A stretch of DNA of 64,000 bases, from assembly GCF_900169565.1 (NCBI RefSeq), contig NZ_LT828648.1:808876-872875 (forward strand), given 5' to 3'. A program made the translations under genes and the position numbers. Numbering within the stretch: position 1 is the stretch's first letter; each line of letters begins with the position of its first letter. Positions 35,841-45,464 of this stretch are shown piece after piece. The notes beneath the pieces were generated by a model that was given only the letters and a program-made list of their open reading frames with translations, ran no database searches and was not told where the DNA came from. Origin of the DNA: Nitrospira japonica. GTDB taxonomy: Bacteria > Nitrospirota > Nitrospiria > Nitrospirales > Nitrospiraceae.

Positions 35841-36299
35841 ATGATGCGTCCATTCCCACGAGGCATCTGGTCTGGGGTGATCGGGTTTGCGCTGCTGCTC
35901 AGCGCGACGATCGCGACCAGCCAGCCGGTCGGTCCGCAGGCCGAGCCGCCGGGGATCGCGACTCCAGAGCTTCACGGCCTCCCGAATCATGATGGTCCGC
36001 CTCCCGGCAGGACCGAGGCGGCCTCCCCGCTCCGTCAGAAAACCGAGATTCCCCAAAAGGCGAAAGATCTGCTTCGGACGATCCGGGAGCGCCAGGGCAT
36101 GCCGCCCCCCGGCTACGCGGGCGGACGTACCTTTCACAATCGAGAACGCCGGCTCCCTCGCGGGCTGTACCGGGAGTATGACGTCAATCCGAAGATTCGG
36201 GGCCGGCCGCGCGACGCGGAACGGATCGTCATCGAACAACAGACCGATCGGGCCTATTACACGGCCGACCATTATCGAACGTTCGCTCCATTCAAGTGA
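35841..36299 (+). CDS. Exported barnase-type ribonuclease
   Basis: 152 residues. Signal peptide (GVIGFALLLSATIATS), a Pro-rich linker, and a compact RNase N1/T1 (barnase) domain from about residue 85. All active-site positions match barnase: Arg101 in FHNRERRLP (barnase Arg59), Glu112 in LYREYDV (Glu73), Arg124 and Arg128 in GRPRDAERIV (Arg83, Arg87), and His144 in YYTADHYRTF (His102). It would cut RNA after guanine. The next gene, 6 bp downstream, is a barstar-type inhibitor, which protects the cytoplasm before export. Confidence 0.88.
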   Translation: MMRPFPRGIWSGVIGFALLLSATIATSQPVGPQAEPPGIATPELHGLPNHDGPPPGRTEAASPLRQKTEIPQKAKDLLRTIRERQGMPPPGYAGGRTFHNRERRLPRGLYREYDVNPKIRGRPRDAERIVIEQQTDRAYYTADHYRTFAPFK

Positions 36300-36305
36300 G
36301 ACACC

Positions 36306-36845
36306 ATGCCGCACCGGACGTCCCTCGCTTCCATCATCCAGTCGATCAAGGCACCCTGGGTCCTATTGCTCACGCTCGACGCGGGGGCGCACATCGAGAA
36401 GGTCTTCCATGTCCCGGACGGATTCGTCCTGCGCGTGGTTCGCGGAGCCAAGTGCCGCACCGCCGCCGCCTTGTTCCAGGAGTTCGCCCGCGCGCTCAAG
36501 TTGCCCGACTATTTCGGGCACAACTGGGATGCCCTCGAAGAATGCCTCGCGGATCTGGAATGGCTACCCGCCAAAGGGTATGTGTTGGCCGTCACGGAAG
36601 CGGAACAGGTGCTGATAAAAGAGGAAGACGACTACAGCACGTTTCTCGAAGTGCTGAGCGATGCCGGTGAGGCGTGGGCGGCAGGTCAGGCCGGTTCCGG
36701 CTCCAGACCTTTTCATGTCATCCTGACCGTGTCCCACCAGCAGAGGGCCGCACGGGCACATTGGTCGATTCCGGAAGTCGGTTTGGATGCCGAAGTGGGA
36801 CACCGAGCCAAGGTATCGCGAAAACAGCCTCCATCCGTAAAGTGA
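36306..36845 (+). CDS. Barstar-type ribonuclease inhibitor
   Basis: 179 residues, no signal peptide, so cytoplasmic. The barstar core is visible as LKLPDYFGHNWDALEECLAD (Asp75 corresponds to barstar Asp35), followed by a hydrophobic strand and a final FHVILT strand. The barstar Trp38-Asp39 pair is Glu-Glu here. A C-terminal tail of about 45 polar residues is longer than in Bacillus barstar. Immediately follows the exported RNase, the standard toxin-immunity order. Confidence 0.85.
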   Translation: MPHRTSLASIIQSIKAPWVLLLTLDAGAHIEKVFHVPDGFVLRVVRGAKCRTAAALFQEFARALKLPDYFGHNWDALEECLADLEWLPAKGYVLAVTEAEQVLIKEEDDYSTFLEVLSDAGEAWAAGQAGSGSRPFHVILTVSHQQRAARAHWSIPEVGLDAEVGHRAKVSRKQPPSVK

Positions 36846-39796: not shown

Positions 39797-39901
39797 TTAT
39801 TTCTTCTTGTTCGAGGAATTATCCGAGAACAGCAACCAGCCCAGCACGACAAAGCCGATGGCCACACCTGTGATGGCCAGCCAGGTTCCGATTTTGTCCA
39901 T
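39797..39901 (-). CDS. 34-residue single-span membrane protein coupled to ybgC
   Basis: Direct minus-strand translation: MDKIGTWLAITGVAIGFVVL, then GWLLFSDNSSNKKK and stop. One membrane helix with a basic C-terminal tail. Its ATG overlaps the ybgC stop (TGATG at 39901), with an AGGAGA ribosome site inside the end of ybgC. Coupling to ybgC suggests it belongs to the envelope-linked Tol-Pal context in which YbgC acts, but no role is known. Confidence 0.7.
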   Translation of the reverse strand: MDKIGTWLAITGVAIGFVVLGWLLFSDNSSNKKK

Positions 39902-40302
39902 CAATGTTTCTCCTTTTCGGCCGGTCGCAGTGCATCGGCTATTGCCTTGTCGAGGCGCCGCACCTTCCCCCCGCCGTCCGTCGCCGCAAGACGCGCCGAG
40001 CCTTCCACTACCAGGCGTCCGCTCTGTTTGTCCTTGACGACGTGCGAGAACGTCAACGAGGCGCTGCTCAAGTCCGTCACCGATGTGTCAATCGTCAGTG
40101 TATCCCCATAACGGGCCGGAGATCGATAGGTCAGCTCTGCGTGCACCACGACAAACACCGTTCCCTCGTCCATCAACTGCTTGACCGAACATCCGCGCTC
40201 TTCGAGGTGTGCCGTCCTGGCCCGCTCGAAATACTTGAGATAGTTCGCGTAATAGACGACGCCTCCGCAATCCGTGTCTTCGTAATAAATGCGGATGTCC
40301 AT
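39901..40302 (-). CDS. ybgC: Acyl-CoA thioesterase YbgC
   Basis: 133 residues, hot-dog fold. The YbgC/4HBT signature IYYEDTDCGGVVYYANYLKY with the catalytic Asp (EDTD) is at the very start, followed by FERARTAHLEERG. It hydrolyses short-chain or hydroxybenzoyl-type acyl-CoA esters and is linked to Tol-Pal function and phospholipid metabolism in proteobacteria. No tol genes lie in this window. It overlaps the 34-residue membrane protein gene by one base. Confidence 0.9.
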   Translation of the reverse strand: MDIRIYYEDTDCGGVVYYANYLKYFERARTAHLEERGCSVKQLMDEGTVFVVVHAELTYRSPARYGDTLTIDTSVTDLSSASLTFSHVVKDKQSGRLVVEGSARLAATDGGGKVRRLDKAIADALRPAEKEKH

Positions 40303-40374: not shown

Positions 40375-40734
40375 TTAGGTATTCAACAGAGTATTTCTGA
40401 ATGCATTGATACTCTTGGCAAGCCGCTGGCTATACTCGTACAGATTTTATTGTGCTCAGGCTCTGTAATGTAAACACGATCTTTGGCAAGAAATGCCCCC
40501 GCCACAACCTCGTATGTCGAGCCTAATGCTATTTCCAAATGATAGTCGAATACCTTATTGGATTTTTGGGCAGAGCCTTCTGCGATGTTAAGTCCGATTG
40601 AATTGGCTGCACGATTCATTTGTGACTTCAATCCATAATCTTCATGCCTTGGAAACTTCGCGGTCGCGGCATAAACCGTCGTCGCGTATTCCTTCGCCAT
40701 TTGCCATCTCCAAAGTCTCAAACCGAAAGGCCAT
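40375..40734 (-). pseudogene. Frameshifted four-helix-bundle protein (S23/IVP family)
   Basis: The central frame encodes the recognisable core of the 23S rRNA intervening-sequence-type four-helix bundle (MAKEYATTVYAATAKFPRHE, then SQMNRAANSIGLNIAEGSAQ). Near the N-terminus the natural start (MAFRFETLE from 40734) is in another frame, joined near GAGATGGCAAATGG. Near the C-terminus the expected ending (LYEYSQRLAKSINAFRNTLL, stop 40375) is in a third frame, after AATAAAATCTG, consistent with loss of one A in a homopolymer. Two independent frameshifts make this a pseudogene unless they are sequencing errors. The tandem repeats on both sides are inverted. Confidence 0.75.
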
Positions 40735-40751
40735 CTTCGCCCTTCTGTCTC

Positions 40752-40793
40752 CTCTGCCATACGCTATACGCCATGAGCCATATGCTCTTAAAG
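40752..40793 (-). repeat. Right inverted copy of TATRGC-type repeat
   Basis: On the minus strand CTTTAAGAGCATATGGCTCA then TGGCGTATAGCGTATGGCAG. It begins at the stop codon of the CARF-HEPN gene (40788-40790) and runs toward the pseudogene, the mirror image of 40311-40340. Confidence 0.65.
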
Positions 40794-42044
40794 ATTCAAT
40801 GTCGGAAACCTTGGCAACGTACTCTCGTTTGACCCGGCGAGACGGACGACGACGTCATACAACTGCTGCACCCGCTCAGCCTTCACCGGTTCGAACCCGT
40901 GTCCCAGGATCCCGCGGTTGGCCGCATCGAGCAGAGGTTTCATGGTCGGCCACTCCCGCAGAAAGGATTGCCCCAACTGATCCCCCAGACCGGCCAGCGC
41001 ACGAAACTGTGCCTGCAGCGGCAACCGGTACTTGCCGTCGATGTCGTCCAGGTGGCACACACGACAGTTTTCTTGAAGGGCTTGCGGCAATTGCTCCGGC
41101 CGCACGTCCCAAGTCTTGATTCCGTGCGCCGTAAACAGACGGCGCTGCGCCAGGGCTTCCAGCGCCCTGAGCAGCGATCGCATGGCTCCCTCCGCATCGT
41201 TCGTCACGCGCAGGCGGCGTCCGGCATGGGCGAGCAAATCGACGGCCACGGATTCTTTCACTTCCGAAGGGTCGAGGACGAGCTTCTCGAGGAACCCCGA
41301 ATTGGCTTTGATCGCGGGCAGGCAGCTCTTCACCTCCGCCGGCCCTCCGAACAGGGTCGCCATCTCCAGCGCCTTGATCGACGTCTTCAACTTTTCCCAC
41401 GCGTGACGATGTTGAAGGCGCTCCCACAGGTCGTAACCGTCAGCCAAGTCGGCGAGCGCGCGATACAGCGGTTTCAGTCCTCCGCTCACGCGATGCTCGA
41501 TCTGGCGAAAGACTGCGGCAGCCGCCGCCAAGGCGCCGCGATTGAACAGGCTGCAGCCTTCCCGTCGCATGCCTCTGGCGGCCTCGTCCCAAGGATTGGC
41601 CTGAACCCATTGCTTCTCCATCCCATCCAGCGTGACGGTCTCTCCCTCCCGCCCCTCTTGCGCGCCGATGATGGACACCACGCGGGACGCATGAGGCAAA
41701 GCCGCCAGCGTCAACCCCGCCGCCATCGCCGCCGTGGCGCCCGACAAGTCCAGCACGAGCGACCCCGATTCGATTCCCCAGGTTTCGAGCAGCGCCGGGA
41801 GGGAACGGGCGATCGTCACGTAGCAGGACGGGAAACTCTCGACATCGGGTACGACGATCCAGTCCCAGCGCCGGGGGACCTGAGACAATTTTGGCTGCAG
41901 ATCGTGTTCGACCAGCGGCTTCGCAGATTCGGGAAGGACAAAGCAGGCGGCGTCCGGTCGCAAACGGTTGAGTGAATAGACCGCGCCCGCGACCTCCTCC
42001 GTCAGCGCCACGACCAATGCTTGAACCGGCTGCTCCTGTGCCAT
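40788..42044 (-). CDS. Stand-alone CARF-HEPN protein (TIGR02710/Csm6-Csx1-like)
   Basis: 418 residues from the ATG at 42044 (ATGs at 42071 and 42119 are also in frame). The N-terminal CARF-type Rossmann domain opens VQALVVALTEEVAGAVYSLN and contains LVLDLSGATAAMAAGLTLAA (Asp99). The long helical part (ALAAAAAVFRQIEHRVSGGL, ADLADGYDLWERLQHRHAWE) leads to the C-terminal HEPN ribonuclease motif Rx4H in ANRGILGHGFEP (Arg377, His382). In type III CRISPR systems such proteins are activated by cyclic oligoadenylate to cut RNA. No cas gene or CRISPR array is in this window. Confidence 0.85.
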   Translation of the reverse strand: MAQEQPVQALVVALTEEVAGAVYSLNRLRPDAACFVLPESAKPLVEHDLQPKLSQVPRRWDWIVVPDVESFPSCYVTIARSLPALLETWGIESGSLVLDLSGATAAMAAGLTLAALPHASRVVSIIGAQEGREGETVTLDGMEKQWVQANPWDEAARGMRREGCSLFNRGALAAAAAVFRQIEHRVSGGLKPLYRALADLADGYDLWERLQHRHAWEKLKTSIKALEMATLFGGPAEVKSCLPAIKANSGFLEKLVLDPSEVKESVAVDLLAHAGRRLRVTNDAEGAMRSLLRALEALAQRRLFTAHGIKTWDVRPEQLPQALQENCRVCHLDDIDGKYRLPLQAQFRALAGLGDQLGQSFLREWPTMKPLLDAANRGILGHGFEPVKAERVQQLYDVVVRLAGSNESTLPRFPTLNL

Positions 42045-42197: not shown

Positions 42198-42632
42198 ATG
42201 GTCTGGTGGTATTGGATGGTGTTGGGCTTGGCGCTGCTCGGAGCCGAAATGGCGACGCCGGGCGGGTTTTATATTCTTTTTTTCGGTCTTGCCGCGTTGA
42301 TCGTCGGTACCCTGGCCGGAACCGAGGTCGTCCAGACCGACTGGCTCCAATGGCTGCTGTTTTCCGTCGTGGCGGTCGGTTCCCTTTTGATCTTCCGGGG
42401 TCCGCTCCTGGCGAAATTGAGCCCACACGGGCACGCTCAGCCGGACATCGATTCGATCGTCGGAGAAACCGCCATTCCGCTCGAGCCATTGGCGGCTGGC
42501 GAAATCGGAAAGGCGGAACTGCGCGGAACGACGTGGACCGCCAAGAATGTCGGCGCCGAGCCCCTCAAGAAGGGTCAACGGGGCAAGGTGGCCCGTATCG
42601 AAGGATTGACGCTCTGGATCACCAACGAATAG
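42198..42632 (+). CDS. NfeD-family membrane protein
   Basis: 144 residues. Two membrane helices at the start (YWMVLGLALLGAEMATPGGF and LFFGLAALIVGTLAGTEV), a third around WLLFSVVAVGSLLIF, then a C-terminal OB-fold (SIVGETAIPLEPLAAGEIGK, LKKGQRGKVARIEGL). NfeD proteins pair with band-7/stomatin proteins and act in membrane quality control. The partner gene follows 38 bp downstream. Confidence 0.9.
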   Translation: MVWWYWMVLGLALLGAEMATPGGFYILFFGLAALIVGTLAGTEVVQTDWLQWLLFSVVAVGSLLIFRGPLLAKLSPHGHAQPDIDSIVGETAIPLEPLAAGEIGKAELRGTTWTAKNVGAEPLKKGQRGKVARIEGLTLWITNE

Positions 42633-42670
42633 CCGTTCCGTTCATTGTCCGAGGATGATGAGGAGGTCGC

Positions 42671-43612
42671 ATGGCATCGGGAACTCTGGTCGTGCTCATA
42701 CTGGCGCTGCTCGTCCTCTATGTGATCGCCAAGACGGCGGTGGTCGTGCCCCAACAAAGCGCCTACGTGGTAGAGCGGCTGGGTAAATATTCCGCCACGC
42801 TCAACGCCGGATTCCACATCCTGCTCCCGTTCATCGACACCATTCGATACCGGCATTCGCTCAAGGAGGTCGCCATCGACATTCCCGAGCAAGTCTGTAT
42901 CACCAGGGACAACGTGCAAGTCTCCGTGGACGGCGTGCTCTATCTCAAAGTCTTGAACCCGGAACGGGCGTCCTACGGCATCAGTGATTATCACTTTGCG
43001 CTCTCGCAGCTGGCCCAGACGACGCTCCGCAGCGAAATCGGAAAGATCGAGCTCGACCGCACGTTTGAAGAACGGACGAACATCAACATCCAAGTCGTCA
43101 ACGAACTGGACAAGGCGTCGGAGCCCTGGGGCGTGAAGGTGCTGCGCTACGAGATCAAGAACATCACCCCTCCCAAGGACGTGCTCAACGCGATGGAAAA
43201 GCAGATGCGCGCCGAGCGGGAAAAACGCGCGCTCATTCTGACTTCCGAGGGAGAGCGCGACGCCGCCATCAACCAGGCCGAGGGGGAAAAGCAGCAAGTC
43301 ATCAAGGCTTCGGAAGCCAGAAAGCAGCAGCAGATCAACGAAGCGGAAGGCGCAGCGTCCGCCATTTTGGCCATCGCGCAGGCGACCGCGGAGGGACTGC
43401 ACAAGGTCGCCGACACCATTCGGGTTCCCGGAGGACAGGAAGCCGTGCAACTGCGGGTGGCCGAACAATACATCGCCAAGTTCGGCGAATTGGCGAAAGC
43501 CGGCACGACGCTCGTGCTCCCGGCCAGCGTGTCCGACGTCGGCTCCATGATCGCCCTGGCGATGAGCGCCGTCCGTCAGACAGGCCAGACATCCCCCTCC
43601 AAATCAAGCTGA
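42671..43612 (+). CDS. SPFH/band-7 stomatin-like protein
   Basis: 313 residues. One N-terminal membrane anchor (LVVLILALLVLYVIAKTAVV), then the band-7 domain (VVPQQSAYVVERLGKYSATL, GFHILLPFIDTIRYRHSLKE, TLRSEIGKIELDRTFEERTN). A charged coiled coil follows (KQMRAEREKRALILTSEGER, INQAEGEKQQVIKASEARKQ) and a Ala-rich tail. It assembles into a membrane-bound ring with NfeD and may scaffold or protect membrane proteins (QmcA-like). It is co-directional with the NfeD gene. Confidence 0.92.
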   Translation: MASGTLVVLILALLVLYVIAKTAVVVPQQSAYVVERLGKYSATLNAGFHILLPFIDTIRYRHSLKEVAIDIPEQVCITRDNVQVSVDGVLYLKVLNPERASYGISDYHFALSQLAQTTLRSEIGKIELDRTFEERTNINIQVVNELDKASEPWGVKVLRYEIKNITPPKDVLNAMEKQMRAEREKRALILTSEGERDAAINQAEGEKQQVIKASEARKQQQINEAEGAASAILAIAQATAEGLHKVADTIRVPGGQEAVQLRVAEQYIAKFGELAKAGTTLVLPASVSDVGSMIALAMSAVRQTGQTSPSKSS

Positions 43613-43909: not shown

Positions 43910-44488
43910 ATGAAAGACGTGGTGCTCAACGCGTTCGCGGAAAGCACGGCCGTCAAACAGCAATTCGTACGCGAACAGGCCGACCGGATCGTGCGCGTTG
44001 CGGAATTGACGGCGGCGGCCCTCGCGAAGGGCCACAAGGTCCTGCTCTTCGGCAACGGAGGCAGCGCGACCGATGCGGCGCACATCGCGGCCGAATTCGT
44101 GGGCCGCTATAGGCGAGACCGTGCACCGCTGCCGGCCATCGCGCTGGCGACCGACATCGCGGCCATTACCTGTATCGCCAACGACTACGGATACGACGAG
44201 CTCTTCGCGCGTCAGGTTCGTGCCCACGGCCGAGCGGGCGACATCGCGATCGCCATCAGCACCAGCGGCAATTCTCCCAACGTCCTGAAGGGAGCGGAAG
44301 CCGCCAAGGCGTGCGGGCTCATCACCGTCGCCTGGACCGGTGGCAGCGGCGGCAAGCTGGCCGGCCTCGTGGAATTTCCCTTCATCGTTCCGTCGACCGT
44401 GACGGCCCGCATCCAGGAATGCCATATCACGATGGGCCATGTGATATGTGAATTGATCGAGGACCATCTCCTTGGCAAAGCCTCCTGA
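43910..44488 (+). CDS. gmhA: D-sedoheptulose 7-phosphate isomerase
   Basis: 192 residues from the ATG at 43910 (the frame is open upstream to 43802). SIS domain: KVLLFGNGGSATDAAHIAAE (phosphosugar-binding Ser/Gly loop), RYRRDRAPLPAIALATDIA, GDIAIAISTSGNSPNVL, and the C-terminal helix AR(I)QECHITMGHVICELIE. It makes D-glycero-D-manno-heptose 7-phosphate, the first step to ADP-heptose for LPS core. It overlaps the next gene by 17 bp; rfaE2 lies further on. Confidence 0.93.
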   Translation: MKDVVLNAFAESTAVKQQFVREQADRIVRVAELTAAALAKGHKVLLFGNGGSATDAAHIAAEFVGRYRRDRAPLPAIALATDIAAITCIANDYGYDELFARQVRAHGRAGDIAIAISTSGNSPNVLKGAEAAKACGLITVAWTGGSGGKLAGLVEFPFIVPSTVTARIQECHITMGHVICELIEDHLLGKAS

Positions 44489-45464
44489 CCGGAAGGTTCC
44501 GCTTCGAACGGCTCGGGCGCTGATCCCGCCGATCAATGTTTCGGACCTGAAGACGTATCCCCTCAAGAAGCGCCACAGCAAGGTACGGGTATCCGATTTC
44601 GCCGAGCCGTGGCGCCGCGGAGGCAGCTTCGCCCGGTTCTACCGGTCTCTGCCGGATATTCTGGGCGCGAAGACGCTCCGGGCCGTCGCCGCCTCGATCG
44701 CCGCGGCCCATCGCAAGCGCAGGCCCGTGATCGTCGGCATCGGCGCCCACGTCGTCAAGGTGGGATTGACCCCCATCTTCGTGGACCTCATGAACCGCGG
44801 CATCGTGTCGGCCATCGCCATGAACGGCGCCGGCATCATTCATGACTTTGAGCTGGCCCTCATGGGTCACACGTCGGAAGAAGTCGATGCCGAGATCGAC
44901 CAGGGACGCTTCGGCATGGCCGAAGAAACCGGGCGCATGATCAATGACGCGATCATCCGGGGCGCGAACGAGGAGCGCGGGCTCGGCGAAGCCGTGGGAC
45001 GCTATATCAATGATTCTCCCGGCCTCTTTCGCAACCACCGGACGAGCATCCTGGCGGCCGGCGTGAGGCTCGGCATCCCGGTCACGGTGCACGTGGCCAT
45101 CGGTACCGACATCATTCACATGCATCCGTCCGCCGACGGCGCGGCGATCGGCGCCACGTCCCTATTCGATTTCCGACGTCTGACGGCCGTGGTTTCGAGA
45201 ATGGAAGGCGGCGTGTATCTCAATATGGGCTCGGCCGTGGTCCTGCCGGAAGTGTTCCTCAAGACCGTGTCTCTGGCCCGGAATCTCGGCCACCCTTTGA
45301 CGCAGATCACCACCGTCAATATGGACTTCCTGTCCCACTATCGCCCGTTGACCAACGTCGTGCGCCGGCCGACGCAGAAGGGCGGCCGGGGTTATGCGCT
45401 GATCGGTCATCATGAAATCATGGTGCCGCTGCTCGCGGCGGCCATTTACGAAGAACTGGGGTAA
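44472..45464 (+). CDS. Conserved hypothetical protein in heptose cluster
   Basis: 330 residues, starting with TTG at 44472 inside the 3' end of gmhA, after a GAGGA site. A Rossmann-like core appears: RRPVIVGIGAHVVKVGLTPI, GIVSAIAMNGAGIIHDFELA, RTSILAAGVRLGIPVTVHVA, IGTDIIHMHPSADGAAIG and EGGVYLNMGSAVVLPEVF. The His-Met-His-Pro and NMGSAV blocks look like an active site. I do not recognise the family; a phosphosugar or deoxyhypusine-synthase-like NAD enzyme are guesses. The tight coupling to gmhA points to heptose or nucleotide-sugar metabolism. Confidence 0.7.
   Translation: MAKPPDRKVPLRTARALIPPINVSDLKTYPLKKRHSKVRVSDFAEPWRRGGSFARFYRSLPDILGAKTLRAVAASIAAAHRKRRPVIVGIGAHVVKVGLTPIFVDLMNRGIVSAIAMNGAGIIHDFELALMGHTSEEVDAEIDQGRFGMAEETGRMINDAIIRGANEERGLGEAVGRYINDSPGLFRNHRTSILAAGVRLGIPVTVHVAIGTDIIHMHPSADGAAIGATSLFDFRRLTAVVSRMEGGVYLNMGSAVVLPEVFLKTVSLARNLGHPLTQITTVNMDFLSHYRPLTNVVRRPTQKGGRGYALIGHHEIMVPLLAAAIYEELG

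Follow-up and report, generated by a model that had tools for sequence, protein, structure and literature searches.

The chromosome of the nitrite-oxidising bacterium Nitrospira japonica encodes an orphan protein of the CARF-HEPN type, which raises the question of what such a protein does in a genome without matches to Cas10 or Cas1 models. The stretch of DNA that was analysed, the window, comprises 64,000 nucleotides (positions 808,876 to 872,875 of contig NZ_LT828648.1). The gene (40788-42044, reverse strand) is a genuine open frame of 418 codons, and its product is a protein of the CARF-6H-HEPN, Csm6/TIGR02710 type. On the same strand, it encodes a CARF domain (residues 5-150; 41595-42032), whose limits were set by eye from the structural model and the Pfam matches, a 6H (HTH-like) linker domain (residues 151-265; 41250-41594) and a HEPN domain (residues 266-418; 40791-41249). 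TIGR02710 matches the whole protein with 127.1 bits (curated cut-off 83.9), and the Pfam models PF09670 (Csm6 HEPN domain) and PF22205 (Csm6_6H) match with 72.2 bits (cut-off 27) and 43.5 bits (cut-off 27.6), respectively. TIGR02710 is also matched by all 44 members of A1, an alignment of 44 Nitrospiraceae proteins picked from 63 distinct ones. The PADLOC model PDLC01812 'CARF1--CARF_HEPN' has the same length as the protein, matches it in full with 773.6 bits and matches 44/44 family members; thus, the orphan family, which this model evidently describes, is already catalogued as CARF-HEPN. A single-protein phmmer search against the PDB gave no match, and the family profile was needed to reach Csm6 of Thermus thermophilus (TtCsm6). 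An AlphaFold2 model built from A1 (mean pLDDT 87.3, pTM 0.81) has Thermus Csm6 (8jh1) as its best solved structural match (Z 21.1, rmsd 6.2, 382 residues aligned), and Foldseek matches it to 8jbc with an E value of 5.6e-12. The model and the two Pfam matches therefore agree on the CARF-6H-HEPN fold, and the preliminary description of the locus, which had proposed an orphan protein of Csm6 type and a profile comparison with TIGR02710 and Csm6, was right in this respect.

The absence of a CRISPR locus is likewise supported. A search of the window for direct repeats of at least 22 bp with copies within 5 kb revealed no repeat family, and models of Cas10, Cas1, RAMP and SMODS gave no match in the genome of the window, which consists of one contig. 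The whole-genome search for Cas10, which the preliminary description had proposed, thus did not provide the partner that a cOA-dependent ribonuclease would need. The same applies to the genus: the Cas10 palm, RAMP and SMODS models matched in none of the seven genomes, and Cas1 was found in one of the seven, a genome other than that of the window. A cOA synthase in the same cell was therefore detected neither for the window's genome nor for the genus, and a distant source of cOA was rejected as an explanation.

The residues on which the activity of a Csm6-type ribonuclease depends were compared with TtCsm6 and with intact homologs. The preliminary description had read the string ANRGILGH, with R377 (codon 40914-40916) and H382 (codon 40899-40901), as a working Rx4H motif of the HEPN domain. 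However, R377 does not occupy the catalytic column. When the family profile is aligned with TtCsm6, GRNSALLVHGF of TtCsm6 pairs with AANHAVLGHGF, and the column of TtCsm6 R415 is thus that of A375 (codon 40920-40922) rather than R377. The HEPN motif (residues 374-383, AANRGILGHG; 40896-40925, reverse strand, as are all codons given here) is therefore degenerate with respect to the intact form xRNxSxLAHG. In TtCsm6, each of the exchanges R415A, N416A and H422A abolishes the RNase activity (PMC10897365). A multiple alignment brought together the orphans (86 distinct proteins), 14 intact copies of the type III-like kind and intact copies of the nearest outgroup, of which six rows give five letters per site, as L239 and L240 are half-length pieces from one draft genome and were counted as halves. 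Both motif windows of this alignment are free of inserted columns, and the orphan rows are free of gaps. An arginine at position 375 is found in 0/86 orphans, but in 14/14 type III-like and 5/5 outgroup copies, and the R-x4-6-H motif is consequently missing from the catalytic register. His382 is present in 76/86 orphans, in comparison to 14/14 and 5/5 of the intact copies, and Asn376 is kept in 48/86. The column of R377 varies between H, Q, R and K, with arginine in 7/86 orphans. The preliminary description had itself stated that it would be contradicted if closely related proteins consistently lacked the Rx4H motif, and this is what the alignment reveals: an arginine anywhere at positions 375 to 377 is combined with H382 in only 7/86 orphans. 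The protein contains four R-x4-6-H strings, three of which are Rx4H; shuffled versions of the same protein contain 0.68 Rx4H strings on average, and 51% have at least one. Because of this frequency and the wrong column, the Rx4H string was discarded as evidence for catalysis.

The CARF domain presents a similar picture. CARF motif II (residues 99-107; 41724-41750, reverse strand) reads DLSGATAAM in the window protein, where the intact form is D-Y/F-TGGTK-x-M, and the same alignment places SGTKAM of TtCsm6 opposite GATAAM. K137 of TtCsm6 falls on column 105 (codon 41730-41732), an assignment made by counting along the profile alignment, and its exchange in K137A abolishes both cA4 binding and RNase activity according to the same study (PMC10897365). 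A lysine at position 105 is found in 0/86 orphans versus 14/14 type III-like and 5/5 outgroup copies, and the CARF string that was initially taken for a working motif thus lacks the lysine of all 19 intact homologs. Furthermore, a serine or threonine at CARF column 17 occurs in 1/86 orphans; neither of the two cOA-binding motifs, GG-S/T and GTK, is therefore maintained. Since TtCsm6 mutants at the matching residues lose cA4 binding and RNase activity, the orphans very likely neither sense cOA nor cleave RNA at the HEPN site and have been retained for a different function, and the ribonuclease responding to cyclic oligoadenylate that had been proposed for the locus would lack the mutation-tested positions in 86/86 orphans. 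A working orphan ribonuclease, which would detect cOA from another source and use R377/H382 to cleave RNA, would be in line with the whole-length TIGR02710, Pfam and PADLOC matches, the Csm6 fold and the presence of an Rx4H string. It is nevertheless highly improbable, given the alanine in the catalytic arginine column, the loss of the CARF lysine in every orphan, the variable column of R377 and a genome without Cas10, RAMP or SMODS matches. In addition, those genomes of the order that possess Cas10 mostly have an intact copy of their own or no copy listed, whereas the orphan is nearly universal.

Some residues of both sites are retained. Asp99, at the CARF core strand, is found in 84/86 orphans and Thr104 in 80/86, which suggests that another ligand may bind; likewise, the retention of His382 and Asn376 makes a weak or altered activity conceivable. 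Asp99 is also lost in the orphans L058 (G131) and L047 (G012), which group in the tree, where L047 has a long branch; in both, the CARF half seems to be drifting further. It could thus be assumed that the sensor was re-tooled for a different ligand and that an altered HEPN site is still catalytic, using H382 together with, for example, K369 and R391. The invariance of K369, R391, G381 and G383 in 86/86 orphans would fit this assumption, and a survey of HEPN domains (PMC3710099) discusses families without the arginine but with the histidine, as well as alternative active sites. However, the ten orphans without His382 form one sub-clade with Y, Q, G, A or N at this position, and the CARF half has become the least conserved domain, so that a re-tooled sensor is considered unlikely. 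The mean column entropy of the orphans is 1.52 for CARF, 1.03 for 6H and 1.03 for HEPN, and that of the 19 intact rows is 1.62, 1.93 and 1.62, respectively; as the intact rows are fewer and diverge more strongly, only the rankings of the domains can be compared. According to these rankings, the 6H linker has shifted from the most variable to the most conserved domain, together with HEPN.

Signalling by cOA is not foreign to the order. Cas10 matches were found in 11/175 genomes of the family (9 over the cut-off) and in 18/235 genomes of the order (14 over the cut-off), with a model that also matches in the E. coli control. Weaker matches of 20-30 bits occur elsewhere in the order and may be GGDEF proteins. 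Eight genomes of the order contain a separate, intact TIGR02710 copy with more than 170 bits, and seven of the eight also have Cas10. Fourteen genomes were chosen for an intact copy (G014 for its extra TIGR02710 matches), and in 12 of these Cas10 is matched, 11 times over the cut-off. In G131, the distances between the intact copies and Cas10 genes are about 5 and 12 kb, and the orphan copy (L058) is found at the usual locus. The nearest relatives of the orphans in the tree are intact CARF-HEPN copies from another family of the same phylum (f21; L235-L240). Four full f21 copies score 326-411 bits with the orphan-family profile, but they differ from the orphans in that the GGTK (CGTK in one copy), RN and LAHG motifs are all present; moreover, the f21 genomes have Cas10 matches, over the cut-off in 4/5. 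TtCsm6 (5FSH, 8JH1), an ancillary ribonuclease of a type III CRISPR system, shares the order of the domains, the whole-length profile and the fold with the orphans. In contrast to TtCsm6, which is inactivated when either its CARF lysine or its HEPN arginine is mutated, the orphan has neither residue; the orphan's genome has no Cas10 match, and its gene occupies a fixed housekeeping locus. One of the f21 genes, L236 (G250:C23, 6567-7817, reverse strand), has neighbors that, on visual inspection, look like rho, prfA, murA and NAD kinase genes; there is no recognisable cas gene among the 16 listed ORFs, and the Cas10 match lies elsewhere in the genome. From L236 it appears that the housekeeping locus perhaps preceded the loss of activity.

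The orphan gene is distributed throughout the order. With the window protein as query, matches were found in 7/7 genomes of the genus (61-100% identity) and in 159/175 genomes of the family, among them 110 of 114 good-quality genomes, covering 22/22 genera; several of the 159 matches are partial and lie on fragmented drafts, and the weak matches in two genomes (G099 and G101) are, by comparison of the match lists, an intact paralogue. The other 4/114 good genomes gave no match, and the gene is missing from a few near-complete genomes such as G139 (99% complete); it is thus not essential everywhere. TIGR02710 matches 196/235 genomes of the order, paralogues included. When 395 genomes from across the phylum were drawn, all of the full-length matches listed with more than 540 bits belonged to the order, and lower scores were obtained for five genomes of f21 and a few more distant genomes. 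A scan of named genomes, from which 80/119 loci were kept, includes N. moscoviensis and Ca. N. defluvii; the titles of the 80 loci read Nitrospira, Nitrospiraceae, Nitrospirae or Nitrospirota, with an uncultured Nitrosospira as the one exception. A search for a mobile-element origin at 1e-3 retrieved nothing from phages and, among plasmids, three Thermus records alone (50% query cover, 28.8% identity), and this origin was rejected. In the tree, which was calculated with a quick method, rooted at the midpoint and made without L239 and L240, the orphans form one clade of 86 rows with a support of 100 and are sister to the intact f21 rows; the rows of f2, f4 and f1 form separate groups (support of 93 for f1), and the position of two long-branch intact rows is unsafe. 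The loss of the residues is therefore order-wide and not recent, and the lineage is sister to the intact form. Of the distant or lost system to which the preliminary description had linked the protein, a lost one agrees with this sister relationship, but the loss would date from before the radiation of the order and is not a recent event.

Retention of the gene over this range is accompanied by purifying selection. All 63 distinct family proteins that were aligned (71 loci, 8 duplicates omitted, length floor 380 aa) are full-length frames of 417-425 aa with 77 invariant residues. The dN/dS ratios of the CARF-HEPN gene against three relatives from the genus are 0.118, 0.112 and 0.078, and those of neighboring genes in the pairs computed range from 0.035 to 0.179; three of four pairs were usable, since the L046 pair is saturated for the CARF-HEPN gene, and because of the high dS the values are rough. 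The lost catalytic residues and the few good genomes without the gene might suggest a decaying pseudogene, which is kept by chance or hitch-hikes with its neighbors. However, a gene with intact frames, invariant residues and a dN/dS of about 0.1, as in its neighbors, that is retained throughout an order can hardly be a decaying one, and this reading was rejected.

The position of the gene on the chromosome is conserved as well. A gene for a YbgC/FadM-type acyl-CoA thioesterase (39901-40302, reverse strand) is its co-directional downstream partner: ybgC lies no more than 1.5 kb downstream, with the same orientation, in 36/40 family loci; in the remaining families of the order, it comes directly after the gene, with a gap of 2-31 bp, in 21/23 loci. 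In the divergent direction, gmhA is located upstream in 34/40 family loci, and it is upstream in 17/23 loci of the other families. In the window, nfeD and an SPFH/Band 7 gene are divergent (42198-43612, forward strand); nfeD is upstream in 25/40 family loci and was not found upstream in the 23 loci of the other families. In these counts, from which the intact copies L121 and L123 were excluded, some misses are contig ends. The occurrence of the same locus across families supports vertical descent, and the tree is concordant with it. Between the CARF-HEPN gene and ybgC, the window contains a gene for a four-helix bundle of the 23S rRNA-intervening-sequence protein family (40383-40760, reverse strand); such a gene is found at this place in 14/40 family loci and 0/23 loci of other families, which reflects either recurrent insertion or repeated loss.

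Taken together, the protein is probably a vertically inherited derivative of a Csm6-type protein that has lost both activities and is kept as a core gene. Its ancestor would have been a CARF-HEPN effector, and both hallmark activities would have disappeared before the diversification of the Nitrospirales, so that the CARF pocket could not bind cyclic oligoadenylate, nor the HEPN site cleave RNA, by the known mechanisms. The gene would have stayed in the chromosomal core, in most cases immediately ahead of the YbgC-type thioesterase gene, and its product would have been exapted for a new role in the order. We infer that this role is a non-CRISPR housekeeping job. A more specific proposal, to which we give slightly less than an even chance, is that of an order-wide housekeeping regulator, in which the stripping of sensing and cutting has left a non-catalytic RNA- or ligand-binding dimer that is co-expressed with the thioesterase and encoded by an exapted, near-universal core gene. 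Lysine or arginine is found in at least 95% of rows at 18 positions of the orphans versus six of the intact set; this gain and the altered ranking of the domains hint at a newly acquired contact surface. The HEPN survey (PMC3710099) proposes that catalytically inactive HEPN domains are nucleic-acid-binding. RNA binding is thus the obvious candidate function of a HEPN protein, if still a rather doubtful one; by way of speculation, the 6H-HEPN half might serve in non-catalytic RNA binding or scaffolding.

Proteins of the CARF-HEPN type are usually seen as infection-triggered suicide RNases, but here one has lost both its sensing and its cutting residues and belongs, under selection, to the fixed core gene set of an entire order, and such a conserved pseudo-effector is more unusual than the ribonuclease proposed at first. 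In the sections available, standalone CARF-nuclease genes are known from the survey (PMC3710099), a classification of 2025 describes Csm6 as a combined sensor, effector and ring nuclease and states that the loss of cOA synthesis accompanies the loss of CARF effectors (PMC12669027), and a review on the exaptation of CRISPR parts treats CARF in the context of immunity (PMC8730458); these sections contain no account of a dead, order-wide core CARF-HEPN protein. A literature search of titles and abstracts, with the CARF classification (doi 10.1093/nar/gkaa635) outside its scope, revealed no description of the orphan family. The label of PDLC01812 names CARF and HEPN in a library of defence proteins and is silent on the lost residues and the core-gene status. 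Together with NCBIfam TIGR02710, an equivalog, the CARF_HEPN label of PADLOC assigns the pseudo-effector to CRISPR or defence in a globally important group of nitrifiers, and such automatic labels would inflate counts of defence systems. Whether CRISPR ancillary effectors can be recruited for housekeeping becomes directly testable in cultured Nitrospira.

A scan of the window with Rfam and for tRNAs gave no matches. Two adjacent genes on the forward strand (35841-36299 and 36306-36845) match a barnase-type ribonuclease (PF00545) and a barstar inhibitor (PF01337), and a pair of this type is found again beyond hemL in several family loci. The gene at 44472-45464 (forward strand) matches the NCBIfam model 'GSU2086 family protein' with 436.6 bits and, weakly, deoxyhypusine synthase; a GSU2086-type gene is present in most of the syntenic loci.
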